Shown: positions 11,674-31,789 of the stretch, piece by piece
Layout: each line of letters begins with the position of its first letter
Position numbering within the stretch: position 1 is the stretch's first letter
Assembly: GCA_018818645.1 (NCBI GenBank)
Contig: JAHIRQ010000067.1
Span: 1-55,199, forward strand
Origin: Bacillota bacterium
GTDB taxonomy: Bacteria > Bacillota_I > Bacilli_A > Acholeplasmatales > Acholeplasmataceae
Length of the DNA: 55,199 nt
Direction of reading: 5' to 3'
Notes under the pieces: generated by a model
Seen by the model: only the letters and a program-made list of their open reading frames with translations
What the model was told of the DNA's origin: nothing
The model's database searches: none
Position numbers and translations under genes: made by a program

Positions 11674-13848
11674 TTACCTCTCATTAATTTGTATTTTTTT
11701 AGTGAATATCATTTTTTCAGCATGAAGTCCAATTTTAATATAATATTCTGCAGACTCTGTTGTATTTACCATAGGATATCCATAGTATCTAAAATCATCA
11801 AAGTTCAAGTTGAATGACACATGCTCAGTTTCATGAGCCCTAATCCATATTTTCTTAAACTTTTTAAGTTCATTCACTGGTCTTGTTACAGAAAAGTATA
11901 ATGCTTCAATATATAGTTGAACAACTTCCGCACCATCTTGATCAGATTGATTGGTGATTTCAAATGAAACTTCAAAACCTTGATCTTCTAAAATATCTTG
12001 ACTAACATTAAAATGATCATATGTAAATTGACTATAACTTAATCCATAACCAAATGGATAAAGTGGTTGATTTTTGATATCGATATACCTGGATGTGTAG
12101 TGATTCTTTGGGTGATTGATATCATCTAAAGGCCTTCCAGTTCTCATATGATTATAATAAATAGGAATCTGTCCTTGACTATATGGAAAAGTCATCGCAA
12201 GTCTTGCTGAAGGGTTTTCTTTGCCTGAAATAATATCAGCGAGTGCATTACCGGTTTCAGTACCTAAGAACCAAGCATATAATAAAGCATCTACATAAGG
12301 AATCAATGGAGTTAAAATCAAAGGTCTACCAGAGAAAATAACAGCTACCATAGGTTTATTGAGTTCATGAAGTTTCTTCACCAACTCAATTTGTGCATCA
12401 GAAATACCGATGAAGCTCTTACTGTTTGCTTCACCAGATTCATATTGATCTTCACCAAGAGCTAGTAATATAACATCTGATTTTGATGCTACAATCATCG
12501 CTTCATTAATCATATTTTCATCAATTGTTTTTAAAGTTGATCCTTCAGCGTTTAATAAATTTGGATAGAGTTTACTTAAACCATCATAAACACTTATACA
12601 ATCCTCGTTACGCGCTTTTCCTCCCCATGGTCCAACCAAACGATTGGTTGTGCTAAAAGGACCTATTAAAGCGATATTTTTAGTTTTCTCAATTGGTAAT
12701 ACACCATTATTTTCGAGCATAACAATAGATTCTATAGCCATTTTTTTAGCAACTTCTAAATGATTGGGAAGTAAGAAATATTTTTCGAAATCAGGATGGA
12801 TATTCGAATAAGGACGATCAAATAATCCTAACTCATATTTTAGAGTTAGTACTCTATAAACTGCTTCATCAATTGACTTTTGAATGGATGGATATTCTTT
12901 TGAAAGTTCAGGTAAATATTTACTATACGAAGTTGCTATAAGTTCTATATCCATGGTCGCATCCAAACATTTAAATGCAACATCTTTCTTATCTCTCGCT
13001 GTCTTATGATTTAAAAGTTCTTCTGTAGACGTGTAATCTGATACAGTGACTCCTTTAAATCCCATTTCATCTCTAAGTACATTTTTTAATAAGAATTTAT
13101 TCGATGTAATTGGAATGCCATCATAAACGTTAAATGCTGACATCACCATTTTTGCACCTGATTGAACAGCTTGATGAAATGGTTTTAAATAGATTTGGCG
13201 AAGCATACGTTCACTCATATCAACCGTGTTATATTCTCTACCAGCTTCAGCTGCTCCATAAGCAACAAAATGCTTAGCGCAAGAACCTACATGGTTACCA
13301 TCAGAACAATCACTACCTTGAAATCCTTCAACCCAAGATTTTGCCATAACGCTCGCTAAATATGGATCTTCTCCTGGACTTTCAACGACTCTACCCCATC
13401 TTGGATCTCTAACAATATCAAGCATTGGAGCGAAAGTCACATGTGTTCCACTATGACTCGCTTCAAAAGCAATCACTTCAGCAGATTCTTTGACTAACTC
13501 TGGATTAAAACTACCAGACATCGCAAGATTCACAGGAAATCCTGTGCGGCATCCATGAATAATGTCGTTACAAAACATTAAAGGAATTCCTAGTCTCGAT
13601 TGTTCTACCGCTATTTTTTGAAGCTTTTCTGACACTTTATTATCATATGGTCCAACCATAGAACCTAAACGTCCTTCTTTGATTAGAACTGAAAGGTTAT
13701 TTTTCTCAAAGGCAGGTCCATAATCAAATTCACCCATAATTGCTGTTTGATATAGTTGACCAACTTTTTCTTCAATTGTCATTTTAGAGATTAATAGATT
13801 AACTTGATCATGAATCTCTTTTTTTGTTCTCTTGTTATCTTGGCTCAT
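11674..13848 (-). CDS. GH3 beta-glucosidase, cytosolic
   Basis: A 724-residue GH3 enzyme releasing glucose from short beta-glucosides. Domain order is the usual TIM barrel (about 1-340), alpha/beta sandwich (about 375-560) and C-terminal fibronectin-III-like domain (about 630-720). The nucleophile is D271 in GVTVSDY. The acid/base is probably the Glu in the QYESGEANSK loop. KHF (192-194) and the GRVVESPGEDPYL block are also present. There is no signal peptide, so it works on imported sugars. It lies between the lipoprotein glucanase and the GH94 gene. The pairing of GH3 with a 1100-residue GH94 matches beta-1,2-glucan clusters, so sophorose or sophorotriose are the expected substrates (inference). 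Ribosome site AAAGGTG upstream. Confidence 0.92.
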   Translation of the reverse strand: MSQDNKRTKKEIHDQVNLLISKMTIEEKVGQLYQTAIMGEFDYGPAFEKNNLSVLIKEGRLGSMVGPYDNKVSEKLQKIAVEQSRLGIPLMFCNDIIHGCRTGFPVNLAMSGSFNPELVKESAEVIAFEASHSGTHVTFAPMLDIVRDPRWGRVVESPGEDPYLASVMAKSWVEGFQGSDCSDGNHVGSCAKHFVAYGAAEAGREYNTVDMSERMLRQIYLKPFHQAVQSGAKMVMSAFNVYDGIPITSNKFLLKNVLRDEMGFKGVTVSDYTSTEELLNHKTARDKKDVAFKCLDATMDIELIATSYSKYLPELSKEYPSIQKSIDEAVYRVLTLKYELGLFDRPYSNIHPDFEKYFLLPNHLEVAKKMAIESIVMLENNGVLPIEKTKNIALIGPFSTTNRLVGPWGGKARNEDCISVYDGLSKLYPNLLNAEGSTLKTIDENMINEAMIVASKSDVILLALGEDQYESGEANSKSFIGISDAQIELVKKLHELNKPMVAVIFSGRPLILTPLIPYVDALLYAWFLGTETGNALADIISGKENPSARLAMTFPYSQGQIPIYYNHMRTGRPLDDINHPKNHYTSRYIDIKNQPLYPFGYGLSYSQFTYDHFNVSQDILEDQGFEVSFEITNQSDQDGAEVVQLYIEALYFSVTRPVNELKKFKKIWIRAHETEHVSFNLNFDDFRYYGYPMVNTTESAEYYIKIGLHAEKMIFTKKIQINER

Positions 13849-13876: not shown

Positions 13877-15178
13877 TTAAGCTTCTATTTTAGAAATTCC
13901 AATTTCATCCAAACCATTTTGAACATATTCATTTTGCATGAAATAAGTCCAAACTGTCTCATCAAAATAATTTGAGATCATCAATAAGGTAACCCCTTTA
14001 TTGATACCTATAACATCTTGGGCAACCCAAGCTTGATCATTTTCAAAATTATAAGAGTCTTTAAATCCATAAGTACCTTTTAATCCACCAATCGTATTAA
14101 AATAGCGAGCAGCATCTTTAACGATATCTGGAGTAAACACGATACTTCCCAAAGCACCAGATGGTGGAATTGTTCCATCGTTTCTATGTGCATCATCAGT
14201 ATATCCTGATGGTTTAGATCCATAATATCCACTATATCCATCTGGTCCGTCTGACGCAGTCATTCCCCAAGAATTCGCTCTAAATGTTGAATAATAAGGA
14301 TTCATGTCAATTGCATATTGTCTGTTCGCTATTGTTGCGTGAATACTATTTTCAAACCAATTGACACCTTGTTCATCTTCTGTATCTCTAAAATCTATGA
14401 ATGCATGAGAGTATTGGTATGTGAATAAACTACCAAACCAACTCGAAATGAAAGGTGTTCCTCCGCCATAACTTGCAGTACGTCGCGTAAATGAATTGTA
14501 TACCGTTTTAGATGTGCGATAATCTTCATTTGGTGCACCTGATCCCAATACATAAAGTAAGAGCTGTTCACCATAAAAATCCCAATGTCCTCCAAAACCA
14601 CTTTCAGGACGATATCCCATGAAAAACTGGTTGTTAGAATCTAAATACCAAGTCCAATCGATTTGAGCATAAAGTTCCATCGCTTTTTCTTTGACATCCC
14701 CACCAAAATATTCACCAGCTGTTATAGCACCAGCAATAAATAAAGCAGTATCAATAATACTGACTTCACTTAAACCAGCTCTTAATCCAGTTTGTTTATT
14801 TAAGAAATGGTAGAAAAACCCATGGTAATTTGTTAAATTCAGAAATGTGTCTAGTGTTTTATCTGCTCTTTCATATCCATCATCAAATGTAATCCATTCA
14901 TTTTCAACACCAATAGGCAATCCTGCAAGACCAAAACCAACACTTGCTATACTCGCTAGAGTCGCATTAGAATCATATCGGTCATTAATTAATCCATAAC
15001 CACCGCTTGTTTCATCTGTATTTGCAAGTTCATAAAAGAATAGAAAACTTTTTTCCATTTCCTCTAACAAAATAAGTTCTGCATCATCATATACACGTGT
15101 TGGTTCAGATTCTTCTGCTCTTTCACAACCAACAAGTGTTATTAACAATAAGATGATTATTAATATTTTTTTCATCAT
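13877..15178 (-). CDS. Lipoprotein GH144-like endo-beta-1,2-glucanase
   Basis: A 433-residue surface lipoprotein: the signal peptide MMKKILIIILLLITLVGC has the lipobox LVGC at C18. The mature part is a glucoamylase-like (PF10091) helical barrel. Family blocks include GGYGLINDRYD, EVSIIDTALFIAGA, EQLLLYVLG, FTYQYSHAFIDFRD, WGMTASDGPDGY and PPSGALGSIVFTP. GH144 proteins of this type are endo-beta-1,2-glucanases giving sophoro-oligosaccharides, and some relatives (GH162, GH189) share substrate and fold. Anchored outside the membrane, it would cut polymer before import by the ABC systems in the same operon. AGGAG precedes the first ATG by seven bases. A cytosolic paralog is at 30521-31789. The family call is firm; the exact activity is inferred from the GH94/GH3 neighbours. 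Confidence 0.85.
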   Translation of the reverse strand: MMKKILIIILLLITLVGCERAEESEPTRVYDDAELILLEEMEKSFLFFYELANTDETSGGYGLINDRYDSNATLASIASVGFGLAGLPIGVENEWITFDDGYERADKTLDTFLNLTNYHGFFYHFLNKQTGLRAGLSEVSIIDTALFIAGAITAGEYFGGDVKEKAMELYAQIDWTWYLDSNNQFFMGYRPESGFGGHWDFYGEQLLLYVLGSGAPNEDYRTSKTVYNSFTRRTASYGGGTPFISSWFGSLFTYQYSHAFIDFRDTEDEQGVNWFENSIHATIANRQYAIDMNPYYSTFRANSWGMTASDGPDGYSGYYGSKPSGYTDDAHRNDGTIPPSGALGSIVFTPDIVKDAARYFNTIGGLKGTYGFKDSYNFENDQAWVAQDVIGINKGVTLLMISNYFDETVWTYFMQNEYVQNGLDEIGISKIEA

Positions 15179-15180
15179 AA

Positions 15181-17061
15181 TTATTCTCCTGTTATTCCTG
15201 ATCTGTCCACACTTTCAACAAACCATTTTTGTAATCCAAAATACATCAATAGCAATGGTGCAATACTAATCAAAGTACCTGCCATATAAATCGCTTCATT
15301 AATTCTATCGACAAAGTCTTCAGCATTTGGATCAACATTTCCAAATTGCTCCCTAAATGAAGCAGCAAATCTACTGAGTTGAAGTGGTAATGTTCTTGCT
15401 CCATCAATATATAAACCAGTTAAATAAGTTTCATTCCAATACCAAACGAAACTGAATAAGAAGACAACAACAATCGCTGGAACAGCTAATGGAAGACTCA
15501 CCTTTAAAAAGACTCGAATTGGACCAGCACCATCAACACGTGCTGCTTCATCTAATACTTTAGGTATTGTATTAAAAAATTGATAAAAAATCATGATAAA
15601 GATTGTACTCTTTAGTCCTTGACCAAACAGTGCAGGATATATAAATGCTCCAACATTTCCTAAAATACCTAAATCACGATACATTAAGTAAGTAGGTATC
15701 ATTAAAACAGGTGCTGGAATGATAAAGGTAAACAAAATGAGTGCAACAACAACTTTTTTAAACTTGAAATCAAATCTTGCAAGTCCATAACCTATCAATG
15801 CAGTACTAAAAACTTGAGCTAAAGCTGGAAAAAGTGATATGGTTATACTACTTCTAAGAGAACTAAAGAATCCGATCGTCTTAAATGCTTTTACATAGTT
15901 TTCAAAATATAATGTGGAAGGAATTAATCCAACGGTAGCATCAATAACATCTTCAGGAGATTGGAATGATGTGAGTGTCAGATAAATAAATGGATATAAG
16001 AAAGTAAATCCAACGGATGCAATCAATAAGTATATAAACACTCTGAAAACTAATCCATCTGTTCCTTTACGACCAACAAGTTTTTTTCTAACCTTTTTAA
16101 CTGTAGCATTTTTATTAAGGAATGTGTCTTTTTCAGTATATCTTGTTAAATCTAAATAGAAATGTTCAGTGTTTCTAACGTATTTAACATCCTTTTTTCC
16201 TAAATTGAATAAAACAAATAATAAAACAACGATGAGTGCGATTACAACAAAGTAAATCCACACTAAGGCTGCACTAAACCCGAATCCATTTCCAATCTCT
16301 CCCGTTTGAAACATATATTCTTTAATCAATATAATGATTCTGTTATTAGAAAATCCTGCAAGCATCACAAGTGTATAGATCATATTGATTAATATAATTG
16401 GTTTCATGAAGGGTAGCGTAACTTTCCAAAATTGTTCCCATGGACTTGCTCCATCAATTTCTGAAGCTTCATACACTTCTTTATTCATTTTTTGAAGCAT
16501 TACTAAGTAAACAATAATTTGTACACCACTAAACCAAAACATGCTGATCAAATTATTAAATACATTGACAATCAATTCACCAAATCCTTCACCAAAAATA
16601 GAGGAAAATACATGAATAACTTGGAAATTACTAATTCCAGGTAAAACAATCGCGTTATTGTTTAATAGTTCTTGCATAACAGGTCCTGAAACAATAACGA
16701 CCGGAAGGAAAAAGATGGTTCTAAAGAATCCTTTAAATTTGATATCCATATTTAAGATCATCGCGAATATAACTGCAAATACGTTGATAACAACCATCAT
16801 CATGAGTGAGTTCTGCAAGAAATTCCCTAGTTCTATAACCATCACTCTGTCGATTGCGAATGCGTGTTGATAATTTGCAAATCCAATGTATTGGAGATTA
16901 ATACCAGTTGTAGGTATCGTCACGTGATTTAAACTTAGGAAAAATGAATAAATGATTGGATAAAAGGTGAAAACAATGAACCCTACGATCCATAAACTTA
17001 CAAATGCATATCCAAGAAAGCTTTCTCGTTGTTTGAAAGTTAATCGAAATTTTTTCTTCAT
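15181..17061 (-). CDS. Fused double ABC sugar permease (MalF-MalG type in one chain)
   Basis: A 626-residue membrane protein containing two complete carbohydrate-type permease domains, which are normally two proteins of about 300 residues. The first half (about 15-295) has its EAA loop EVYEASEIDGASPWEQFWKV. The second half (about 335-620) has VLDEAARVDGAGPIRVFLKV. A charged linker (about 300-335) joins them. Each EAA loop should dock one ATPase subunit, so a single chain could form the whole pore. The start at 17061 follows GAGAGGGTG. No ATPase gene is nearby. It lies four bases after the DUF5696-like gene and directly before the glucanase. I see no stop or frameshift at the junction, so the fusion is real in this sequence. 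Confidence 0.92.
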   Translation of the reverse strand: MKKKFRLTFKQRESFLGYAFVSLWIVGFIVFTFYPIIYSFFLSLNHVTIPTTGINLQYIGFANYQHAFAIDRVMVIELGNFLQNSLMMMVVINVFAVIFAMILNMDIKFKGFFRTIFFLPVVIVSGPVMQELLNNNAIVLPGISNFQVIHVFSSIFGEGFGELIVNVFNNLISMFWFSGVQIIVYLVMLQKMNKEVYEASEIDGASPWEQFWKVTLPFMKPIILINMIYTLVMLAGFSNNRIIILIKEYMFQTGEIGNGFGFSAALVWIYFVVIALIVVLLFVLFNLGKKDVKYVRNTEHFYLDLTRYTEKDTFLNKNATVKKVRKKLVGRKGTDGLVFRVFIYLLIASVGFTFLYPFIYLTLTSFQSPEDVIDATVGLIPSTLYFENYVKAFKTIGFFSSLRSSITISLFPALAQVFSTALIGYGLARFDFKFKKVVVALILFTFIIPAPVLMIPTYLMYRDLGILGNVGAFIYPALFGQGLKSTIFIMIFYQFFNTIPKVLDEAARVDGAGPIRVFLKVSLPLAVPAIVVVFLFSFVWYWNETYLTGLYIDGARTLPLQLSRFAASFREQFGNVDPNAEDFVDRINEAIYMAGTLISIAPLLLMYFGLQKWFVESVDRSGITGE

Positions 17062-17065
17062 ATCA

Positions 17066-19228
17066 TCACCCTCTCACATAGTAGTCAAGAGGATTGACTG
17101 TTACGCCTTCATCTGTCATGGTTTGATTGGTGTAATTGATAAAAATACTTACGCCATTGTCGTAGTCAACTCTTACAAAACCTATATCTAGAACTTCTCT
17201 CCATACAATTTCATGACCAATAACATCACTTAATGCATCATCAACTTTTTTGTAGGTATCCACCATATATTCATCTAAATTTCCAAAATATGTTGCGTAT
17301 AAATCTCTGCTGATCGAACCACTTAATAAATGAGATGGTCTATATGTGATAAAGAAAGCTGGATTGATTCCATACTCAATTACTTTTAACACGTCAACAT
17401 TGATGTTTGGTGAGAAATTTAAAAATTGTGAGTATACTTCTACATAACCACTGAGTAAAATTTGCTCGAATGGTACACTATCAGTAAAAAATCTTGAGCG
17501 ATTATGATAAATAAGATTCATGTAAAAACGACTTGTATTGTTTAAATTATAGAAATCCGGACGATACATTGATACACGTTCTTCAAATAAATCATTGTAG
17601 AGTGACACAACTTCTGATCTTGTCATAGACTCATTTGAATTTAATTCATTTGAGATACCATCAATTGCGATACCTCCACGATCACTTAGTGTTTGAAATG
17701 CTTCAGGGAATTCATCTTTGATATATGAAATATCTGTTAAGTATTCATAATATTCTCCACGATTTCTAGAAACACTATATTGTCTTCTCGTAATCATTTT
17801 TAAAGAAGATGATGGAGTGTTATTGGTGTAGGAAAATTCAATGGTTGGATCATAGTAGAATTCAACATTTAGGTCATCGATGTCACCGAGTCTTCCTAAC
17901 TGTCTATCTAATCTATAATTTGAGTAACTTCGATCACTATAGCCACCACGATTGTATCCTCTGATCGTATATCTGATTTGATCAACACCTTGATCAGATA
18001 AAGTATGATGAATCGATTTTAAATCATCAAAACTTGTCATGATGAAATTTTTCTTAAACAATAAACCTTTTTCGTACTCTTTCGCTAACACATCGACATG
18101 CATACTAACTTCTGTAGGTTTATATGCATTGTTTAAGACTCCGCGATTGATTAAATCCTCTTTATATGTCTGTGCGAAACCAATATAATTAGCATCATCA
18201 CCATCTAAAATCGTATAAGAAAGTTCTGGATTATAGTCTTTTATTTCGCTTTCATAGATGGTTATATTCTCATTGGTTGATAAAGGTTGAACATGATTTT
18301 CTCTCATCAAAAAGAGTGCATTTTGACTATGGAAGTTGGTCTGATAAGTTGGTGGAGTATAAATATATTCTGCATACTCAGCACCATCTTTTACTTCAAC
18401 AAATAAAGCATTTTGGTTTACACCGTGTACAATTCCGAAGACAGGATAGTTTAATAAAGTATCACCACTTGTATTGGATCTATATTTATCTTGGCCATAG
18501 AATCTTGCACGATAGACATTGGATATCGCCGAAGATGAATTGAATCGAATTAAAGCTCCATTCCCAGATGGTAAAAAGAAATATCCAGGAATATCATCAG
18601 CATATGCAGTACCAAAGAACTCATAAATAGATAATTTGAGTAAACGATTTGGTCCATACTCTTCGATAGTATCTCTAAGCACTTTAACATCGAAACCTTT
18701 TTCTGTTAAAGTGACTGTATAATCCAGTTTGATTTGCTCGACTTCGAAATCAACATGGAATGTGACAACATCTCCATTGACTTCAAAACTAGTTGTCGCG
18801 TTTTCAGCAGATCTTCTTTGTAACATGGATGAGGTTACCGTAATATTAGACTCATTTAAAAAGTCAATAGTGATTGCAGAATTGATACGTCTTATCCACG
18901 CTCCTGTTAATTCATAATCGCTTAAATTAACGACATCACTTGACCAATAATACCCAGTTTCTTTATTCAAGATTCGAATAGCTAGACCGTTTGGATTCAC
19001 ATACAAAATAAATGTATTATTTTCGACAAGTTCAGTAAAATTGGTCATATCTGCTGCTGGTTGATTATATACTTCTAAATCTTCAACTCTTGTAAAAAGG
19101 TTAGAGTCAATGAGTGTAGTTGATACGCTGATGGGGATTTCAAATGGATCATCTTCTTCAGCTGCATAAGTTTCAAAGATGAAGAACATGCATAATATCA
19201 ATATAATCAAAAGGTTTAGTTTTTTCAT
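17066..19228 (-). CDS. DUF5696-like exported protein of a polysaccharide uptake module
   Basis: A 720-residue exported protein. The signal peptide is MKKLNLLIILILCMFFIFETYA, with likely cleavage after YA and no proper lipobox. An N-terminal beta-rich half (about 60-330) contains GLAIRILNKETGYYWSS and a PGYFFLPSGNGALIRF segment. The C-terminal half looks like an alpha/beta barrel (about 370-650), with DQIRYTIRGYNRGG and DRGGIAIDG. It resembles the uncharacterised DUF5696 proteins found beside ABC sugar transporters and Yip1 proteins in Paenibacillus-like bacteria. Whether it is a glycosidase, a binding protein or a scaffold is not known. Its start overlaps the stop of the NHL-Yip1 gene as ATGA, so the two are translationally coupled. 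Confidence 0.72.
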   Translation of the reverse strand: MKKLNLLIILILCMFFIFETYAAEEDDPFEIPISVSTTLIDSNLFTRVEDLEVYNQPAADMTNFTELVENNTFILYVNPNGLAIRILNKETGYYWSSDVVNLSDYELTGAWIRRINSAITIDFLNESNITVTSSMLQRRSAENATTSFEVNGDVVTFHVDFEVEQIKLDYTVTLTEKGFDVKVLRDTIEEYGPNRLLKLSIYEFFGTAYADDIPGYFFLPSGNGALIRFNSSSAISNVYRARFYGQDKYRSNTSGDTLLNYPVFGIVHGVNQNALFVEVKDGAEYAEYIYTPPTYQTNFHSQNALFLMRENHVQPLSTNENITIYESEIKDYNPELSYTILDGDDANYIGFAQTYKEDLINRGVLNNAYKPTEVSMHVDVLAKEYEKGLLFKKNFIMTSFDDLKSIHHTLSDQGVDQIRYTIRGYNRGGYSDRSYSNYRLDRQLGRLGDIDDLNVEFYYDPTIEFSYTNNTPSSSLKMITRRQYSVSRNRGEYYEYLTDISYIKDEFPEAFQTLSDRGGIAIDGISNELNSNESMTRSEVVSLYNDLFEERVSMYRPDFYNLNNTSRFYMNLIYHNRSRFFTDSVPFEQILLSGYVEVYSQFLNFSPNINVDVLKVIEYGINPAFFITYRPSHLLSGSISRDLYATYFGNLDEYMVDTYKKVDDALSDVIGHEIVWREVLDIGFVRVDYDNGVSIFINYTNQTMTDEGVTVNPLDYYVRG

Positions 19229-21261
19229 CGTATCGTCAACTCCTTAAATATATTGATAAAAAAGTCAAATAGTTGTGATGACAAGATGCTCACAATCAAG
19301 TATAAAATAATCATGATAATCATAATAAAGAATGTCAATAGTATATTAACAATCAATTCACCATATTTAAAATTATTCAACTCTTTCAACATGATTAATA
19401 GTAAGACTATTGACCAAGTAATCATAATTAAATATCCAAAGCTATATAAAAATGCTTCATTGTATGTTAAGAAGTTGCTGAAAATATCTAGTGGAATCTT
19501 AAACAAAAAGATAGGCATAAATGAAACAATGATTCCAATGAAGATATCTCTATAGAATGCTTCACCATTTTGAAGTGTACTTACAAGATAGTTACCTAAT
19601 CCAAATAATAGTAGAGGTATTGACCATTTTAGAATCTCAAATATGAATACCATGTCATTTAGGTTGGATCTAAATAAATACCCTCTAATGTAATAGTCAC
19701 TTAATATGTTAATCAATACAAAAACACCATACATGATTAACGCGGTTCTTATCCGTATTTTTTGTTTAAACTTAATGAAATAGACTGTATCCATAGGGTG
19801 TTTAAAAATATTGAGCATCAATATCAATTCACCGATGAATTGATATTGATTGAGTTTCTCATATGTTCTCGCTTTTATAGCTTCATAAGAATGATAATAC
19901 TCTGTTTTCTTAAATCCTTTATGTGCAAAGATCAATACAATACCAGTGATAAATACCCATAAAAAGTTTTGATTGATCCAAGCATCTCTGACTTCCCAAT
20001 ATGCTATAGAATATCCTTCTTTATTATTTGCTATACGATAACTAATTAATGCATTTTCATAATCTTCATTTCGTTCATAATATTTTCCTAATCTAGAATG
20101 TGCCAGTGCAAATAAACTATTTTGTCTAATGATTTCTTGAAAGTAAACAGCACTTTCATCATATTGGCCAATACGATAGAGTTCAATACCTGTCAAAACT
20201 GAATTTGCAAATTCAGTTTTAGAGAATACTTGGATGTTATTTCCAACGCCATCTAAAACCCAAATATCACCATATTTATCAACAGCAATACCTGTAGCTC
20301 CTGCAAACTCTCCAACTCTAAGACTGTTTAATTCTTGTCTTCCAAATTTGAATAATAAATTACCAAATGAATCATGAACTCCAATGACACCTCGTGATTC
20401 AATATCTTGAGAAACCGTATAAATATTTCCAAATGAATCTGTTGTTATATCAACATAAGCTGGATCAATTACCATATTTCCGGTTAATATATTATTTCCT
20501 TCAATATTTAGTTTTTTAAGTGGGTTATTGTACTCGTTTTTTATGACAGTATAAATCAATCCTTTTTCATCGATTGCTAAATTCGTCGTAGATTTAGGTG
20601 TTAATGAAGCGAATTGTTCTTTTTGTTCTGCACTCATTAAAGCACGCTGGAATAAAAGTTCTAACGTAATTGTTACTCTATTAATTCCAAAATATCCTAA
20701 GAAATGTCCTTCTTTGTCCAGTTGGATAATCCCATTAATACCTGTTTCACCAACGACATACATGTTCCCTCTCTGATCAACGACCACTTTGCGAGGTTCA
20801 AAAATTGAATCAGCTCCGAATAAGGGTTCTGTAGGACGTCCAAATTGATTGATGAGTTGATGATTTTCATCAAATACTAGAATCAAATTACTGTTCGAAT
20901 CCGCGACATAAACATGCTTATCGTCAGTGACAAAAACACCGGTAGGTTCGATGATAAGTTCATGCTCGATTGTGTTCATTGCTCTCGTCTCTATATTATA
21001 AATAAAGATTCTTGATTTACCTTTATCTGCTACATAAACTTCATCACCAGATATATAAATATCTTCAGGACTCATGAATCCTTCATTTAAAACAAATGTT
21101 CCTTCATACGCATTTGCAGTACGAACAAGACGACCATCAAATCCCATCGTATAAGTTCCATAAGGAATGATACTTATGTCTGTTTCAGCTTGCACGTTAA
21201 ACCTTAATGAAAAGATAGAAACGAGTAAGCAAACGATTAGTAGTTTTTTCATCAATTTCAT
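19225..21261 (-). CDS. NHL-repeat, TPR and Yip1-domain membrane protein
   Basis: A protein of 678 residues from the chosen start (681 from a GTG at 21270). Its order is: signal peptide ending about residue 25; six or so NHL beta-propeller repeats (about 40-345, for example PEDIYISGDEVYVADKGKSR and GIAVDKYGDIWVLDGVGNN); two TPR-like helix pairs (about 350-405, YDESAVYFQEII and YENALISYRIA); a transmembrane helix (WVFITGIVLIFAHKG); and a Yip1-type multi-helix domain with about five segments. The propeller and TPRs should lie outside the cell. Function is unknown; NHL propellers often bind carbohydrate or protein. It is encoded between the split permease pair and the DUF5696-like gene, suggesting an accessory of the transporter. 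I chose ATG 21261, six bases after AGGTG. Confidence 0.8.
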   Translation of the reverse strand: MKLMKKLLIVCLLVSIFSLRFNVQAETDISIIPYGTYTMGFDGRLVRTANAYEGTFVLNEGFMSPEDIYISGDEVYVADKGKSRIFIYNIETRAMNTIEHELIIEPTGVFVTDDKHVYVADSNSNLILVFDENHQLINQFGRPTEPLFGADSIFEPRKVVVDQRGNMYVVGETGINGIIQLDKEGHFLGYFGINRVTITLELLFQRALMSAEQKEQFASLTPKSTTNLAIDEKGLIYTVIKNEYNNPLKKLNIEGNNILTGNMVIDPAYVDITTDSFGNIYTVSQDIESRGVIGVHDSFGNLLFKFGRQELNSLRVGEFAGATGIAVDKYGDIWVLDGVGNNIQVFSKTEFANSVLTGIELYRIGQYDESAVYFQEIIRQNSLFALAHSRLGKYYERNEDYENALISYRIANNKEGYSIAYWEVRDAWINQNFLWVFITGIVLIFAHKGFKKTEYYHSYEAIKARTYEKLNQYQFIGELILMLNIFKHPMDTVYFIKFKQKIRIRTALIMYGVFVLINILSDYYIRGYLFRSNLNDMVFIFEILKWSIPLLLFGLGNYLVSTLQNGEAFYRDIFIGIIVSFMPIFLFKIPLDIFSNFLTYNEAFLYSFGYLIMITWSIVLLLIMLKELNNFKYGELIVNILLTFFIMIIMIILYLIVSILSSQLFDFFINIFKELTIR

Positions 21262-21270
21262 CATATACAC

Positions 21271-22131
21271 CTACTTCAATCCTGAGTGTGACATCGTGCT
21301 CATTACTCTACTTTGCATAATCATGAAAATAATAAGATTTGGTAAAAACATGATTAAAGTTGCTGCTGCACCAATACCTGCTGCAGCTACACTATTAGAA
21401 ATATTAGTGAGTGTTGCCATATAAAACGCAAACGTTTGTTTGATTTCATCATTGACGAACAATGTTGAGGTTTCAACGTTGTTCCATGTTGCTTGAAAAC
21501 TCAAAATAGCGATGGTTGCAATCGCAGGCATCGACAAAGGAACTATAATTTTTGTATAGATGTAAAAATCTCCAGCACCATCCACTTTTGCTGCTTCTAT
21601 CAATTCATTTGGAATTTGATCGATAAATTGCTTCACCAAGAATAAACCAACAGGAATAGCAATCATTGGAAGCACATGAGCAAACATTGTGTCAACAATT
21701 CCAATTTTTGTTACGACTAAAAATCTTGGAATCATCACAGCGATTGGAACGAACATAAGTGCTAGTTTATTGATCTCAAATAAAAGTTTTCTGCCTTTGA
21801 AATTCTTTTTCGATAGTATATAACCTGCCATTGAACTAAATAATACACTAGAAAATACCACTAAAGCAGTAACGATTAAACTATTAATAACAAACTTCAT
21901 AACTGGTAATCCATAACCAACAAACACAAATAAATCTTTAAAGTTTTTTAATGTTGGTTGTTGTACGAAAAATCTAGGTGGAAAAGCGAACAATTCATAA
22001 ATTGGTTTAAACGCAGTTGAAAAAATATAAACTATAGGCATCGCCATAAAGATAGCGAACGGCAATAAGAAGATATAAAATTTAAGTTGTGACTTATGAA
22101 AGTTTTGTGGATTAAAATTAATACCTGTCAT
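21271..22131 (-). CDS. Carbohydrate ABC transporter permease, MalG type
   Basis: A 286-residue inner-membrane subunit of an oligosaccharide importer. It has six predicted transmembrane helices and the EAA loop [20 protein letters not shown] (about residues 180-200), where the ATPase docks. The start is like other MalG proteins ([26 protein letters not shown]). It pairs with the MalF-type permease just upstream (22144-23115). Together with one of the two solute-binding proteins it makes a standard importer apart from the missing ATPase. Sophoro-oligosaccharides are the likely cargo by context. Confidence 0.93.
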
Positions 22132-22143
22132 ATATTTCTCCTC

Positions 22144-23115
22144 CTAATCGTCTTCTTTTAAAATCTTTTGGAAAAACTTACTAAATCCTAATATTAAAAG
22201 TAACAGCATAACCGACAAGGCAGCAGCTACCCCCATTTCAGATCTTAGAATTCCATAATCTTCTATATGGTTTATAATCATTTGTCCTGAATTTTGAGGT
22301 GTTGGGTTTGCTCCTGATAATGCAACCCCAATCGCACCAGCAGAAAAAGTCCCAACAATTGACATTACGGCAGAAAATAACATTTGTTTTTTAATTGAAG
22401 GGATTGTAATATAAAAAATTTCTTGTAATCGATTACGCATACCATCCATATAAGCAGCCTCATAAAGGTCTTTATTCACATTCAATAAACCTGCAAGAAT
22501 CGCTAAGAATCCTACACCCATTGAACTCCAAATGCTGACTAAAATCATGATTGGCATTAAATAATCGGGATTTTGAAGAAATTGAAGTGGTTCGTTAATT
22601 AAACTAAGTCTTAGTAAAAATGAGTTGGTTAAACCCTGTTCATCACCACTAAACATAATTCTCCATACAACTGCAATCGCGACACCTGCAGTCATTGATG
22701 GCGAATAAATGATGAGTGCTAAGAATGTTCTCATTTTCGGTGTTATTTGAGATAACACCCAAGCAAGCATAAAGCTTAAGACATATCCTCCAGGACCGAC
22801 GATAAAACTAAATAACAAAGTATTTGGTAATATTGTCTTCATGAATATTTCATCTTCAGTCAGAATAAATAGATAATTATCGATTCCATTGAATCTAGGT
22901 GCTTGGATACCATTAAAATAAGTAAATGATAACGCAAATGCTACAACCACTGGAACGACAATAAACGTGAAGAATAAAATAATATAAGGTGCTAAGAATA
23001 ATGCAGTCGTGCGATTCTTTCTTTCAAGGAACTCGACAACTTTGGTTTCACCTTTGTTAAAAAGATTAAGAGCAGGTTTCATAAATTGAACCATTTTAAG
23101 CATCAATGCTTTCAT
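22144..23115 (-). CDS. Carbohydrate ABC transporter permease, MalF type
   Basis: A 323-residue inner-membrane permease. A cytoplasmic N-terminus of about 35 residues is followed by six helices. The EAA loop [20 protein letters not shown] lies near residue 220. [21 protein letters not shown] is the first helix and SYTYFNG-like topology follows. It is two bases downstream of the CBM/solute-binding gene and 12 bases upstream of the MalG-type partner, so the three are an obvious transport unit. Cargo is inferred from the operon. Confidence 0.93.
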
Positions 23116-23117
23116 AT

Positions 23118-26048
23118 TTATTCACCCTCCTCAATCCAAGACATAACATCTTCTTTAGTGGTAATTGTGTAAGGCTTAATCATCATACCATCTTGGTCTA
23201 TATATCCAAATTCTTGGTACTTTCTAACAAGTTCTCTTTCAATCAACAGTTTCGCATCATCTACTGCGCTTCTGACATCAACACCATCAAAAACGACCCT
23301 ATTCCAAATATTGGACAGTTCTCTTTCTAATTTATAACCTCCTGGAACTTTAGGAACTTCTTGAAGATGTTCCCATTGTTCTAAAATGATGTTGATATGT
23401 TCTTCAGGAATAGGAAGTGATTTAAATGCTTCAACATTTGCAGAATTCCATAAGAAACCTTCTCCATAGGTTACTAATAAATTATGCATAAACCAAGTTT
23501 GAATTTCAGCACTCATCCACCATTTTAATAATTCCCAAGCTTCTTCCTTGTGCTCACTCTTTTGGAAAATAACACTTGCTTGAGCAGCTCCTGTATGATC
23601 TCTTCTAATATATCCAGTACCATCATCAACACCAGGAGCAAGTGATATTTCCCATTTATTAGAAATTTCAGGTGCTGCAAATGTTAATTGAACATAGGTA
23701 TTAAAACTACTGACACCAATCGGTATTGTAGATTCTCTAAAACTATTATAAAAATTAGGAACTTGTAAAGGAAGGCTATAAAGTGTATATAAATCAACCA
23801 TGGTGTTAATACCATCCAGTGCACTTGGTTGATCGATTAATACATCAAATCCATCTTCTGAATAAAGTTGACTGCCATGTTGATAAACAAAAGGTGCAGT
23901 TGCTGCAAAACCTTTTAATGCACTATCTGCAGAAAGAGGTAGATAATAATTCATTCCATATCTTTGTAAAGTTGGTAAGATACCAACAATTTCATCATAT
24001 GTGTTAGGAACATCAAGTTCAAGAGCATCCATGACATCTTTTCTATAGTATGTAACCGTGAAATCCTGAGTCTCAGGTAAACCAAAGACTTGAGTATCAT
24101 GAATCATATTTAAAAATGAACCTGGCATCAATTGATCAATGACTTCAGTGAAACCATCAAACTGACGCATATCTGCAGCTGCTCCTCTTAAACCAAGTTC
24201 ATAAGGTAACCATGCACTAATACCTAACGCCATATCAGGTTGCGTATTCGCTGCATTAGCGAGAATTAATTTTTGTTCATTTGGCATGACTGCGTATTTC
24301 ACACGAATACCCGTTTCTTCTGTGAATGTTGAATCAGTCATTTGTTGCATCATAGAAATATAATATCTAGAACGATTAACCCATACTTCAATATCATATT
24401 CATCTGTTGTCTCAAATGTGCTTGCAGCTTGATAAATCTGCATACCTGCAATCCATTCTTTTAAGAAATTCGCATTTTCTTTTGGTAATTTGGAATCTTC
24501 TGAATGTATATATATCTTATCTAGAGATAATGGTTGATCGATCATTTGTTGATTGATGAGCGATAACAATTGAGATAATGAGTTAGATCCAACTGATAAT
24601 AAATTCATACGATGCGGTATTTTATCAATATCATTTTTTAATGTACTCAGTTTCTCCAAACCTATTTCTAATTGCTTTTGGATTTGAGTGGATTGTCTTG
24701 GATTGGATGACATATTTTCAATCGCTTCATTCACTTCTGATAAGTCTTCATACCATCCATCAAATAAGCTTTGAGTCTCTGGAATGAATGCATTGATATC
24801 CCACTCACGATTTTCATCTGTTTCACCGCCCGTGAGTTTTTTCAGTTTGATTCCGTATTCACTGATTTCATCAATGATTCTTTGCACAGTTTCATAATGT
24901 TTCCCATAAAGACTTGCATCAACTTCAATCGTAATTGAATTCAATCCTTCATCTAAATAAATCAGTAAATCTTCATCACTACTAGAAAGTGTTTCATTTT
25001 TCCAATCTGTCGAGTAACTGAGCGGATAAGAAGAGAGTTCGTTAAATAGAACAGCTCCATTAACATAGATGTTTCGATACACATCTCTGTTTTCATATAT
25101 TGTATTCTTATATTTCAAGGTTATATTGTAATAACCACTTTGTTCAACGTCAAAAAAATAAGTCAATTGGTCACCAATTTCAGAAAACGAATTACCAATA
25201 ATATTTAAATAATGTTGTTCACTTGAAAAAGGTGATACTGATGGTGTTTTATCTGTTTCTGGTATGACTGAAATGCTATTTTTAAATGTATACTTCTCTG
25301 CTTCAATAATAATCATTTGATCTTCTATTGGAGTTGATACATTTGATAATAAATAGTTTTGGTAGTTTAAATCTTCGGTTGCATCATATATTCTTAGATC
25401 ACCCAAATAAAAACTTCCCTGTTCTTTAGTAATTGTGATTTCATTGATTCCTTCATTTAGTGTAAAAATGATTGGAGATTGATATAAAAATAATTGATCG
25501 CGTAAAAAAACCCGATTCCAGATTGAGACCGGTAAATTTTGAGGATAAACTTGATTTTTATAAATATCAAACTGAACATCATGATCTGAATATGCCCATT
25601 GAGTCAATAAACGCATACTTGTAGCATTTGGAACAACTTCTGAATTGACTTCTATTGATATTTCATTTGGTTTAACAGTTGTATCATCTGACAAATAATC
25701 GACAGCAAAAAAGTAGTCGCCTGCTTCCTCGACATCCAATTCAATATGTAGTTCATTACTGTACTCATCATTCCAAAATATTACTCTACTGCCATATCCT
25801 TTATCATCATCAGACAATGGAATCTCTGTTTGAGCACTAGCAAGTTCCTCAATAGAAAAATGCTGACTAAACCCTGTATATTCAACATCATGAATAAAAG
25901 GATATGGGGGGTGAACAGTGTCCCCCCCCATACTATCTACATCTACATGAATCAGTTTAGATAATATGAATAGTAGAGCAAATGCACCTACGATGGAACC
26001 ACATATAATTAATATGATTCTTTTCAATAACTGTTGATTTGCTGCCAT
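23118..26048 (-). CDS. Membrane-anchored CBM / ABC solute-binding fusion protein
   Basis: A 976-residue protein (981 if started at 26063). Order: one N-terminal transmembrane anchor ([19 protein letters not shown]); two beta-sandwich modules resembling CBM6/35 (about 50-220 with [11 protein letters not shown] and NEGINEITI; about 245-405 with [10 protein letters not shown] and [10 protein letters not shown]); a helical linker (about 415-550); and a complete extracellular solute-binding domain (about 555-955, with [37 protein letters not shown] and [12 protein letters not shown]). Most such proteins are 420-550 residues. The added modules would hold polymer near the transporter mouth. Start 26048 has GGGGGA five bases upstream; 26063 has no ribosome site. 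It contains G8 and C6 tracts near the N-terminus (25906-25929). Confidence 0.88.
25903..25932 (-). repeat. G8/C6 tracts forming a strong hairpin in coding DNA
   Basis: Six G (25906-25911) and eight C (25922-25929) face each other across a 10-base loop, with TAT/ATA extending the stem. On the coding strand the order is G8 then C6. They encode MGG and HPP just after the membrane anchor of the CBM/solute-binding protein. Such G/C runs stand out in this AT-rich DNA. They could slip during replication, changing the frame, or slow translation. Confidence 0.85.
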
Positions 26049-26066
26049 ATTCATCCCCCACATGTA

Positions 26067-28031
26067 TTAACTATTTATAGCTTCGTCTAAAGCAAGTTGT
26101 GCTTTAATAAATTCATAATTGATTAAGTTTTGTAATTGTGAAGTCATATAGTCTGCATAAACGATCTTACCGAATTGAGCATCCCATAATAAGTCACCAA
26201 TTGAAAGTGTTGAACCTGGAGCATTATTTGGTCTTGAAATTGTTGCATCAATACCAGTGTTATAAGTAAATCTTGCAACTGTGAAACCAGGAACGAATTT
26301 ATTACCTTCAACTAAAACTTCAACTGTACCAGCTGCAGCTGCTTCAAATACTTCTTGAACGCCCATCACTGGATAGTCTGTAAACCATTCATCAATAATT
26401 GCTTGGTCAGTACTAATTGGAAGACCTGAAATACCTAATGCTACTTCTCCATTAACTGTATCAGGAACTGCAGTTTCAACGATATTAAACATTTCATTAA
26501 TACCATCTGTACCAAATGTCATCCATTTAGCAACTTCAAATGCAGCTGCTTTATTTTCAGCAGTCTTAGAAATACCATAGAAGTCAGATACACCAACGAC
26601 TTTACTACCAGGAACACCTATAAATTGAACATCAAAGCCTGCGTTAGTTGCTGCAGTAGCTCTTGATTGTGCACCCCATGTGCCATCCCATTGGAATGCT
26701 AATTGTCCATTATTGAATGCAACCCAGTGATTAGCACCAAATCTTGTAACTCTTGGTGAAAGAAGTGGACCTTCAGCATCTGGATCAGTATTATCAAATG
26801 ATTCTGATGCCCAACCGTTAGTCATAATGCTTCCAGCTGCTGCTAATGCATCTTTAACTGGTTGGCTATTGTATAAGAATTCACTTCCAGCTAAACCAGC
26901 ATGACCAATTCCAAGTGGAGTTGCGCTTTCAGCATCCAAAATTGCTGGTAACCAGTTGAATAAATCTGCAGGATGGTTAAGACCAGCTGTTGATGTACCA
27001 TCAAGTTTTGTTGTGTCAGTAGCATTTTCGATAGCATCAATCCAATTTTGATATGTAAAACCTAAAGTTGTGAAATCAGTCAATGTGCCTGTTTCTTCAA
27101 TCAAATCTAAGTTAGCATAATAACCAAGATAGTTTAATGCTGCAGGAACTGCATAAATTTTACCATCATAAGTAATTGCGTCTCTTAGAGATACAGGAAG
27201 ATTTTCCCATTCAGAATCCATTTGAGCTTCTGCAGTGATATCACCAGCATAACCCATAATGATATGGTTAGGAATATTACCTGACATGAATACATCTGGG
27301 AATGTACCAGCTGCAGCTTGTGTAGCTAGGAATTCATCATAATTTCCAGTATATTCAACGATTTGAACTTCGATTGTTTCACTTTGTTCGTTAAATGCAT
27401 CAAGTCTTCTTCTGAACAAGTTGTTTTGTTCAACTGTGCCTAAGTTCCAAGAAGCGAATGTAACGATTGTCTTTGTGCCGTATTCTACAGTAACTACTCT
27501 AGTTCTAGTAATTGTGTTGTTTGAACTGTCAGTAATAGAATAAGTTAATGTATAATCACCAACCATATTAACATCTACTGTACCTGTAACAGTAATCATA
27601 GAAGTTAATACACCATCTTCTTCATCAGTAGCGGTAACACCTTGAAGTGAGTTGAAAACTGAACCGTAAGTGATTGTGATATCCCCAATACCTGCAAACA
27701 CTGGTGCTTCACCTAAAGTAACTGATACTTCTCTAGTTACTGATGTAATGTTGTTTGCACTATCAACTACAATGTAAGTCAATGTGTAATTGCCTTGTGT
27801 TTGGTTATCGACTGTACCTGAAACTGCAATACTACTCGTCAAGTTGCCATCTTCAGTATCAGTAGCTGTTACGCCATCCATAGGGTCAAATTCTTCACCG
27901 ACTTTAATCACTGCTGGTGCGATACCAGAAATGGTTGGTGCTAGATCTTCTTCTACAGTTGGTTCGTTTGCACATGCAACTAATCCGAATGCCATGAAGA
28001 GCACTGTAAACAATATAAAGAGTTTCTTCAT
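26067..28031 (-). CDS. ABC sugar-binding lipoprotein with two DUF5011 domains
   Basis: A 654-residue surface lipoprotein, first gene of operon 1. The signal peptide MKKLFILFTVLFMAFGLVAC has lipobox LVAC. Two Ig-like DUF5011 repeats follow (about 30-105 and 108-180), each with a TATD-EDG core and a GNYTLTY or GDYTLTY strand. The extracellular solute-binding domain fills about 190-640 (ASWNLGTVEQNNLFRRRLDAF, GTWGAQS). The Ig-like domains may lift the binding domain away from the membrane. The longer reading from 28094 is unlikely, because AAGGAG lies at 28042-28047, ten bases before 28031, and a signal peptide starts there. By position it is the main receptor, probably for sophoro-oligosaccharides (inference). 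Confidence 0.92.
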   Translation of the reverse strand: MKKLFILFTVLFMAFGLVACANEPTVEEDLAPTISGIAPAVIKVGEEFDPMDGVTATDTEDGNLTSSIAVSGTVDNQTQGNYTLTYIVVDSANNITSVTREVSVTLGEAPVFAGIGDITITYGSVFNSLQGVTATDEEDGVLTSMITVTGTVDVNMVGDYTLTYSITDSSNNTITRTRVVTVEYGTKTIVTFASWNLGTVEQNNLFRRRLDAFNEQSETIEVQIVEYTGNYDEFLATQAAAGTFPDVFMSGNIPNHIIMGYAGDITAEAQMDSEWENLPVSLRDAITYDGKIYAVPAALNYLGYYANLDLIEETGTLTDFTTLGFTYQNWIDAIENATDTTKLDGTSTAGLNHPADLFNWLPAILDAESATPLGIGHAGLAGSEFLYNSQPVKDALAAAGSIMTNGWASESFDNTDPDAEGPLLSPRVTRFGANHWVAFNNGQLAFQWDGTWGAQSRATAATNAGFDVQFIGVPGSKVVGVSDFYGISKTAENKAAAFEVAKWMTFGTDGINEMFNIVETAVPDTVNGEVALGISGLPISTDQAIIDEWFTDYPVMGVQEVFEAAAAGTVEVLVEGNKFVPGFTVARFTYNTGIDATISRPNNAPGSTLSIGDLLWDAQFGKIVYADYMTSQLQNLINYEFIKAQLALDEAINS

Positions 28032-28061
28032 TGATTTCTTTCTCCTTTGTTTTTTAGCGAA

Positions 28062-28075
28062 TGTAATCGCTTTCT
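28062..28075 (-). promoter_or_regulatory. CcpA cre-like site at the start of operon 1
   Basis: Minus-strand AGAAAGCGATTACA fits TGWAANCGNTNWCA at all but the first position. It lies about 3-16 bases inside the transcript, a position where CcpA blocks elongation. Confidence 0.55.
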
Positions 28076-28084
28076 TATAAGTTG

Positions 28085-28113
28085 ATTTTATCAAATAGAT
28101 GTGTCTGTGTCAA
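28085..28113 (-). promoter_or_regulatory. Promoter of operon 1
   Basis: Minus-strand TTGACA (28108-28113), a 17-base spacer and TAAAAT (28085-28090) with an extended TG. This near-consensus promoter lies about 55 bases before the start codon of the binding lipoprotein. Confidence 0.88.
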
Positions 28114-30520: not shown

Positions 30521-31789
30521 CTACTTACCTTCCATTCTTGTATATTTAAAATCATCAAATCTAGTAAACCCTAATTTCTTAAATGCTTCTTGTATAAATT
30601 CACTGTTCGTTACCAAATTTTGTATGGTTTGATTCAAGTAGTTGTCTAACATGATGATTGTAGGTCCTTTATCTATACCGATATAGGTGTTTGAATACCA
30701 CGGTTCATCTTCAAAATTGAAGGCATCATATAAGCCATATTTTCCCCACATATTTTTGTCTTCTGCAAATTTTTTAAAAATGTCTAGCGAATCTTCTTTT
30801 GTAAAGATGATTGAAGAAAGTGCTGCATAAGGAGCTACAGTTCCATCAACATTGGGTCGATAATCAACGTTGGTGAATCCCCATGGTGGTCCACCAACAA
30901 CTAAATAACCCTTTTTATTATGCATTGCAGTTAAACCCCAATACCCTTGACTTAATGTTTTAGACCATGATTGATCTAGACACCAAGCTTTATTCGCTTT
31001 CGTAGCCGCTACTGAGTTTTCAAACCAGTTAAACATCTTAGCATCAACATATGTCTTAAAATCGATGAAGGCATGTGAAAATTGGTGAATAAAAAGTGCG
31101 TTACCAAAGCAGTAAACATAGTTTTGTCCTTTGTATGCTCCAACATGACGATCAAATCCAAAATATAGCTTTCTAGCATTTTCTGCTGAGGTTTTCTTTT
31201 GACCAGCATATAGAAAATACATCATCAGTTGTTCGGCGTAATGATCCCATTTAGAATTGCTCCAACCTGTTGGAAACCGTTCCGAAATCATATGATATGA
31301 CATTCTAAAAACTGGTTTATCCGGATGAATTAACCAATCCCAATCCGTTGATTCTAACATTTGATCAACGATTTCTTTGACTTCACCTTTGAAAAACTCT
31401 GAAGCTGATAATGCCCCCATTAATAATATTGCTGTATCAATAGTTGAATATTCGGATGGACGACCTTTACTTAATCCATAATTTTCTGCAGTTTCAATAT
31501 TGAGAAAATGAATATAAAAACCATTTTTATGATCAACATGATTCGTTACCGTTTGTAAAGTTTTTAATGTGCGTTCGTATCCTTGCTCAAAAGTTATGTA
31601 TTGGTGATTCACACCAATCACATAAGCACTGAGTGCAAACCCTACAGCAGCAATCGAAGCCATATTCGAATTTCTTGAAGAATCTAGTGCTAAACCATAA
31701 CCTTTCGAATCTTGATTTGAGTTTGTTTCATACCAAAAATAGTCAAAACATCCTTTAATTTCTTTTTCAATCAGTTGTTTAATTTCCAT
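30521..31789 (-). CDS. Cytosolic GH144-like protein
   Basis: A 422-residue paralog of the lipoprotein glucanase at 13877-15178, but with no signal peptide (it begins MEIKQLIEKEIKGCFDYFW). It keeps the same blocks: GYGLALDSSRN, EYSTIDTAILLMGALSA, WDHYAEQLMMYFLYAG, FIHQFSHAFIDFK, GYWGLTAMHNKKGY and VAPYAALSSIIFT. PF10091/GH144 proteins described so far act outside the cytoplasm, so an internal copy is unusual. It may cut long imported sophoro-oligosaccharides, or have exo or transglycosylation activity. Its start overlaps the GH35 end by 11 bases, and AAGGAGGAGG precedes it. It also lies beside the sulfatase, so it may serve a sulfated variant of the substrate. Confidence 0.82.
   Translation of the reverse strand: MEIKQLIEKEIKGCFDYFWYETNSNQDSKGYGLALDSSRNSNMASIAAVGFALSAYVIGVNHQYITFEQGYERTLKTLQTVTNHVDHKNGFYIHFLNIETAENYGLSKGRPSEYSTIDTAILLMGALSASEFFKGEVKEIVDQMLESTDWDWLIHPDKPVFRMSYHMISERFPTGWSNSKWDHYAEQLMMYFLYAGQKKTSAENARKLYFGFDRHVGAYKGQNYVYCFGNALFIHQFSHAFIDFKTYVDAKMFNWFENSVAATKANKAWCLDQSWSKTLSQGYWGLTAMHNKKGYLVVGGPPWGFTNVDYRPNVDGTVAPYAALSSIIFTKEDSLDIFKKFAEDKNMWGKYGLYDAFNFEDEPWYSNTYIGIDKGPTIIMLDNYLNQTIQNLVTNSEFIQEAFKKLGFTRFDDFKYTRMEGK

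Follow-up and report, generated by a model that had tools for sequence, protein, structure and literature searches.

The receptor gene and its neighbours

The 55,199-nucleotide stretch of Acholeplasmataceae DNA analysed here, hereafter the window, carries on its minus strand a gene for a solute-binding protein (SBP) extended by two carbohydrate-binding modules (SBP-CBM), placed among genes for another SBP, permeases and candidate glucan-degrading enzymes (Table 1). The list of open reading frames (ORFs) gives the SBP-CBM gene 981 residues; an alternative ATG at 26048, the sixth residue of that ORF, is the likelier start because a GGGGGA run resembling a ribosome-binding site lies 5 nt upstream of it. 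An earlier, sequence-only reading of the window had chosen this 976-residue start, with which we agree, but it had given plus-strand coordinates, and the plus strand over this interval is interrupted by many stops. Residue numbers below count from 26063; subtracting 5 gives the numbering from 26048. Two other origins of the gene were rejected. It is neither a chance one-off fusion nor two genes misread as one, as full-length homologues with the same domain order are common (30-77% identity), and it shows no sign of being a duplicate of the adjacent lipoprotein SBP, the best BLASTP match between the two SBPs of the window having an E-value of 0.17.

Table 1 Features of the SBP-CBM receptor, its cassette and the neighbouring enzyme genes in the window.
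Feature	Position	Strand	Evidence
First SBP: lipoprotein, two Ig-like domains plus SBP domain	26067..28094	-	Pfam; PDB match 22hh, E 1.9e-43; lipobox LVAC
SBP-CBM receptor gene (981 aa; 976 aa if read from 26048, the likelier start)	23118..26063	-	ORF list; GGGGGA before 26048; Pfam SBP_bac_1 and CBM_35
N-terminal transmembrane helix (anchor), without lipobox	25953..26048	-	Sequence; helix 6-37 in model
CBM35-fold module 1, residues 79-230	25374..25829	-	Model aligned with solved CBM35 domains (Z 11.8); aromatic residue at W156 in 98/98 relatives
CBM35-fold module 2, residues 249-385	24909..25319	-	Z 11.6; Pfam CBM_35, 28.4 bits (fragment); W354 aligned with Trp507 of PsCITase
Helical connecting segment, residues 386-553	24405..24908	-	Model; without Pfam match
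Family-1 solute-binding domain, residues 554-981	23121..24404	-	Z 36.0 to 5ysb, 2.9 A over 372 residues
Permease 1 (MalF-like)	22144..23115	-	Pfam BPD_transp_1; 70% mean pairwise identity, 62 loci
Permease 2 (MalG-like)	21271..22131	-	Pfam BPD_transp_1; 67% mean pairwise identity
NHL propeller-TPR-multi-TM (Yip1-like) protein	19225..21270	-	Pfam NHL, TPR, weak Yip1
DUF5696 protein with signal peptide	17066..19228	-	Pfam, E 7.6e-111; co-occurs with SBP-CBM, 40/40
Fused permeases 3 and 4 (single chain)	15181..17061	-	Two BPD_transp_1 stretches; encoded separately in most relatives
Secreted or lipoprotein GH144-type beta-1,2-glucanase candidate	13877..15178	-	PF10091; XcSGL 8xul, E 6.8e-62
GH3 beta-glucosidase candidate	11674..13848	-	Pfam
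SOGP-type phosphorylase	8354..11668	-	SOGP Pfam domains; LpSOGP 5h3z, E 1e-239
Second GH144-type gene, apparently cytoplasmic	30521..31789	-	Best solved match XcSGL/8xul

Architecture of the receptor

A full-length model of the receptor, built from an alignment of the window protein and 53 relatives from named genomes (pLDDT 87, pTM 0.82), places in order an N-terminal helix (6-37), a disordered linker (about 38-65), two beta-sandwiches, a run of helices (384-548) and the SBP domain; a Pfam search of the receptor assigned the helical segment to no family. The hydrophobic N-terminal helix bears out the transmembrane anchor without lipobox that had been predicted from the sequence. In a crude pattern test a lipobox was found in only 2 of 97 SBP-CBM relatives vs 75 of 88 neighbouring lipoprotein SBPs, and by the same kind of test many Bacillaceae copies of SBP-CBM start with an ordinary signal-peptide-like sequence. 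As judged from these N termini, the missing lipobox is common to the SBP-CBM family and the uncleaved anchor is not. It is plausible that the wall-less Acholeplasmataceae need a membrane anchor, while walled cells can keep SBP-CBM in other ways.

The two extra modules adopt the CBM35 fold. When residues 75-415 were modelled alone (pLDDT 91), module 1 aligned with solved CBM35 domains at Z 11.8 (3zm8; rmsd 2.2 A over 111 residues) and 11.7 (2w47), and module 2 at Z 11.6 (3wnp, 4qaw), with 2.0 A over 114 residues; CBM6 and other galactose-binding-like folds scored slightly below CBM35 for both. This agrees with the sequence-only reading, which had proposed two CBM6/35-like modules on a solute-binding protein; the structure prediction and fold search that it had put forward as a check returned solved CBM35 domains and no non-carbohydrate fold. 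The motifs that it had singled out are present, but EAEKY (254-258) and GYYNITLKY (310-318) both fall in module 2, with NEGINEITI (203-211) in module 1. At the sequence level, module 2 scores 28.4 bits against PF16990 (CBM_35) as an isolated fragment, the cut-off being 28; in a scan of the whole protein CBM_35 appears at 287-363 with 24.0 bits, below the cut-off. The family is matched by 43 of 54 homologues (E<=0.1), and a profile of the extra-module region matches the CBM35 of the Paenibacillus CITase (E 8e-9). For module 1 the CBM35 assignment comes from the predicted fold, without a sequence match.

In the profile alignment W354 of module 2 falls on Trp507 of PsCITase, which we located through its spacing of 8 residues from Trp515. 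Trp507 is the sugar-stacking residue at the canonical CBM35 site (PMC5408701). This position is aromatic in 96 of 98 relatives, and W156 of module 1, which by its place in the sequence we read as the probable counterpart of W354, is aromatic in all 98. The EAE motif of module 2 (254-256), which may belong to the conserved calcium site of CBM35 domains, is kept in cassettes with beta-1,2-glucan enzymes and is SxR/K in cassettes with a GH161 phosphorylase. The same beta-sandwich and aligned stacking Trp are seen in CBM35 modules of enzymes, from Paenibacillus (the CITase; 5x7g, 3wnk) and from Clostridium thermocellum (2w47); in the window such modules sit on a proposed transport receptor.

The C-terminal domain is a family-1 SBP. 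Pfam SBP_bac_1 matches residues 573-855 (E 8.8e-17, 62.5 bits vs a cut-off of 26), and the two-lobed fold aligns at Z 33-36 with many sugar-binding SBPs (PF01547/PF13416). Both the best PDB sequence match (E 8.1e-15) and the best structural match (Z 36.0, 2.9 A, 372 residues) are Lin1841, the beta-1,2-glucooligosaccharide SBP of Listeria innocua (5ysb-5ysf). Lin1841 is a lipoprotein that works with one permease pair; it shares the SBP fold with the receptor but has neither CBM modules nor helical segment. According to PMC6484121, the Lin1841 locus also has SOGP and GH3 neighbours and an ATPase outside the cluster.

A constant cassette of eight parts

The sequence-only reading had considered the architecture unusual. 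Instead, matches to SBP-CBM occur in 60 of 101 related genomes, often several per genome, and in 43 of 295 genomes of the phylum, 40 of them strong. Homologous receptors measure 960-1050 aa across Bacillota, and a scan of named genomes placed them in Bacillus, Halobacillus, Sutcliffiella, Paenibacillus, Haloplasma, Lachnospiraceae and Acholeplasmataceae, the nearest named relatives being Acholeplasmataceae MAGs (76%). Going by these sequence comparisons, SBP-CBM is a widespread and old family in Bacillota.

The main feature, which the sequence-only reading had missed, is the cassette to which SBP-CBM belongs. We annotated 80 named loci with profiles of the neighbours in the window and found a single gene order: lipoprotein SBP, SBP-CBM, permease 1, permease 2, NHL-TPR-Yip1, DUF5696, permease 3, permease 4. 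All parts are present in every locus with enough flanking sequence (64/64); permease 3 scored separately in 58 of these, and the remainder are explained by a fusion of permease 3 with permease 4, which the window and its clade also show. In divergent cassettes the NHL-TPR-Yip1 protein is represented by separate NHL and YIP1 genes. Independent NCBI annotations show this order again in Paenibacillus cellulosilyticus, where ugpC lies directly upstream and small SBPs lie downstream, and in Butyrivibrio fibrisolvens, where NHL and YIP1 are separate genes. No ATPase gene was found inside the cassette in the 64 loci, and the ugpC of P. cellulosilyticus was the single adjacent case; ABC ATPases were flagged in 8 loci, all outside the cassette and mostly of about 730 aa. 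At L128, in the complete genome of Mycoplasmatota bacterium zrk7, the genes for SBP-CBM and NHL-Yip1 are split over several frames, and the cassette there therefore looks decayed or hit by sequencing errors.

DUF5696 is as constant as the receptor. The two co-occur 40/40 in the 295-genome sample, one further genome having only a DUF5696 fragment; the DUF5696 gene follows the SBP-CBM gene in essentially every genome sampled and is also found at L136-L155, cassettes beside amidase, GHL10 or NAGPA genes included. DUF5696 gave no meaningful match to other Pfam families and no sequence match in the PDB, and no paper on it was found in a search of literature that included few subscription papers; the cassette gives the family a functional context. 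The same search, and with the same scope, which makes it weak evidence of absence, found nothing on a CBM-fused SBP or on the eight-part cassette. The cassette is apparently undescribed, while its parts are of known kinds.

Probable substrate and proposed mode of uptake

The beta-1,2-glucan setting proposed from the sequence holds: genes for an SOGP-type phosphorylase, two GH144-type glucanases and a GH3 enzyme adjoin the cassette, and the best solved match of both GH144-type products is XcSGL, a GH144 beta-1,2-glucanase. Other cassettes have other companions. Those at L136-L141 adjoin a GH161 phosphorylase (9qqk, E 9e-201) and a CBM4_9 protein, and those at L142-L155 adjoin amidase, GHL10 or NAGPA genes. 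Sorted by these enzymes, the cassettes would fall into classes directed at beta-1,2-glucan (GH144/SOGP), beta-1,3-glucan (GH161) and wall-like material (amidase/GHL10/NAGPA). On a tree of 98 receptors the three classes require 2 changes, the minimum possible, vs a mean of 15.4 after shuffling; the tree was built by a fast method and has long branches, and the GH161 and amidase/GHL10/NAGPA classes were chosen by score class within a single search, so that the result demonstrates clustering and not a dated history. The L142-L155 cassettes, which are divergent, lie in relatives of the organism beside genes for N-acetylmuramoyl-alanine amidase, GHL10 or phosphodiester glycosidase, which suggests scavenging of the cell walls of other bacteria.

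Conservation within the cassette is highest for permeases 1 and 2 (mean identity 70% and 67%); the SBP domain of SBP-CBM stands at 58%, the CBM modules at 38-42% and the lipoprotein SBP at 39%. In partial correlations of divergence, SBP-CBM goes with permeases 1 and 2 (r = 0.32 and 0.42), DUF5696 and NHL-Yip1 rather than with permeases 3 and 4, and the lipoprotein SBP goes with permease 4 (r = 0.36); these values are weak to modest and could arise from shared ancestry alone. An EAA-type loop appears in the consensus of all permeases, a strict pattern missing 36 of 76 permease-1 copies, and the genome encodes MalK-type ATPases outside the window, one of them a 387-aa ORF with Walker and LSGGQ motifs. 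We favour a doubled ABC importer because of the permease conservation, the divergence correlations, the EAA-type loops and the MalK-type ATPases of the genome. Two MalF/MalG-like pairs that each have an EAA-type loop in consensus, and that partial correlations separate, would also be expected of two ordinary ABC importers that are merely co-transcribed, the lipoprotein SBP serving permeases 3 and 4 and SBP-CBM serving permeases 1 and 2 in separate MalFGK2-type transporters for different chain lengths. Yet no locus of sufficient length has only one half of the cassette (64/64 are complete), and the NHL-Yip1 and DUF5696 genes always lie between the pairs, in Paenibacillus and Butyrivibrio as elsewhere, and we regard two independent importers as possible but less likely.

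The SBP domain of SBP-CBM is more conserved than the lipoprotein SBP, and many of its residues stay unchanged even across cassettes that carry different enzymes, a pattern as compatible with a role in structure or docking as with one in ligand binding. This strong conservation, the apparently secreted forms in Bacillaceae and the variable, specificity-like character of the lipoprotein SBP would suit a scaffold or sensor at the cell surface, one that gathers polymer close to the importer and leaves the lipoprotein SBP alone to feed the permeases. We think such a role unlikely, however, as SBP-CBM retains a complete SBP fold, and its gene adjoins, and correlates with, those of the two most conserved permeases.

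With moderate confidence, we instead propose that SBP-CBM serves as the fixed receptor in an ABC importer with two SBPs and four permeases that takes up glucan oligosaccharides, in the window those of beta-1,2-glucan. This glucan-importer reading is supported by the CBM35 folds, the conserved stacking aromatics, the likeness to Lin1841, the 64/64 complete cassettes, the 40/40 co-occurrence with DUF5696, the partition of enzymes and the SOGP and GH144 neighbours; the identity to Lin1841 of only 22% and the many Bacillaceae copies that look secreted and not anchored speak against it. The cassette in the window probably takes up fragments of beta-1,2-glucan. What was computed directly is the domain structure, the cassette, its strict co-occurrence, the sorting by enzyme type and the existence of an ATPase gene in the genome; the model that we build on these runs as follows. 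The GH144 glucanase would cut the polymer outside the membrane, and the CBM35 modules of the membrane-tethered receptor would grip the glucan chain, while its SBP domain would take the chain end and dock on permeases 1 and 2. The lipoprotein SBP, the more variable of the two SBPs, might serve permeases 3 and 4 or pass substrate on, and the NHL-TPR-Yip1 and DUF5696 proteins might contribute from outside to the assembly or feeding of the complex. Import would be driven by a shared MsmX/UgpC-type ATPase encoded at another locus, and SOGP and the GH3 enzyme would degrade the oligomers inside the cell. More speculatively, the eight products could form one envelope machine, a Bacillota counterpart of Sus-type systems, in which SBP-CBM, the NHL-TPR propeller and DUF5696 thread long glucan into the double permease, and whose common framework has been adapted to beta-1,2-glucan, to beta-1,3-glucan and to material of the cell wall; we put this forward as a tentative idea with the odds against it.

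The import of long glycans by Gram-positive or wall-less bacteria, which have no Sus-type outer-membrane system, is poorly understood. The cassette is a concrete candidate: strictly conserved and present in culturable Bacillus and Paenibacillus, it joins a receptor that bears CBMs to doubled permeases and to DUF5696 and NHL-Yip1, whose roles are obscure. Like the cassette, the alginate ABC transporter of Sphingomonas A1, for which long-glycan import has been proposed, uses two SBPs; unlike it, that transporter has one permease pair and works in a Gram-negative envelope, and it is not known to have a CBM-fused receptor. Clusters of GH161 beta-1,3-glucan phosphorylases offer a second comparison: Kuhaudomlarp et al. 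2019 report ABC genes without an ATPase in such clusters, and a GH161 locus of Acholeplasma laidlawii from which the SBP is missing (PMC6484121). GH161-linked cassettes of the SBP-CBM family also exist (L136-L141), and the passages of PMC6484121 drawn on here do not describe the SBP-CBM protein, doubled permeases, DUF5696 or NHL-Yip1. The cassette may also supply the receptor reported missing from the Acholeplasma locus.

Further genes surround the glucan locus. It is flanked by a sulfatase-family gene with a CLPSR formylglycine motif (29052-30518, minus strand) and an anaerobic sulfatase maturase gene (6234-7346, minus strand). Sulfatase-family genes recur near the cassette in several relatives (L056, L060-L062, L064, L066, L078 and L080), and their products may remove substituents of the sulfate or phosphate type from beta-1,2-glucans of bacteria. 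A GH35-type gene lies beside the cassette (31779-34205, minus strand) and recurs adjacent to it in many Bacillaceae; since the GH35 protein IALB_1185 of another beta-1,2-glucanase cluster acts on beta-1,2-glucosidic linkages (PMC8861115), the gene in the window may not encode a beta-galactosidase. Finally, two plus-strand ORFs by the locus (4549-6051) resemble, from their translations, a broken or split IS1182-type transposase.
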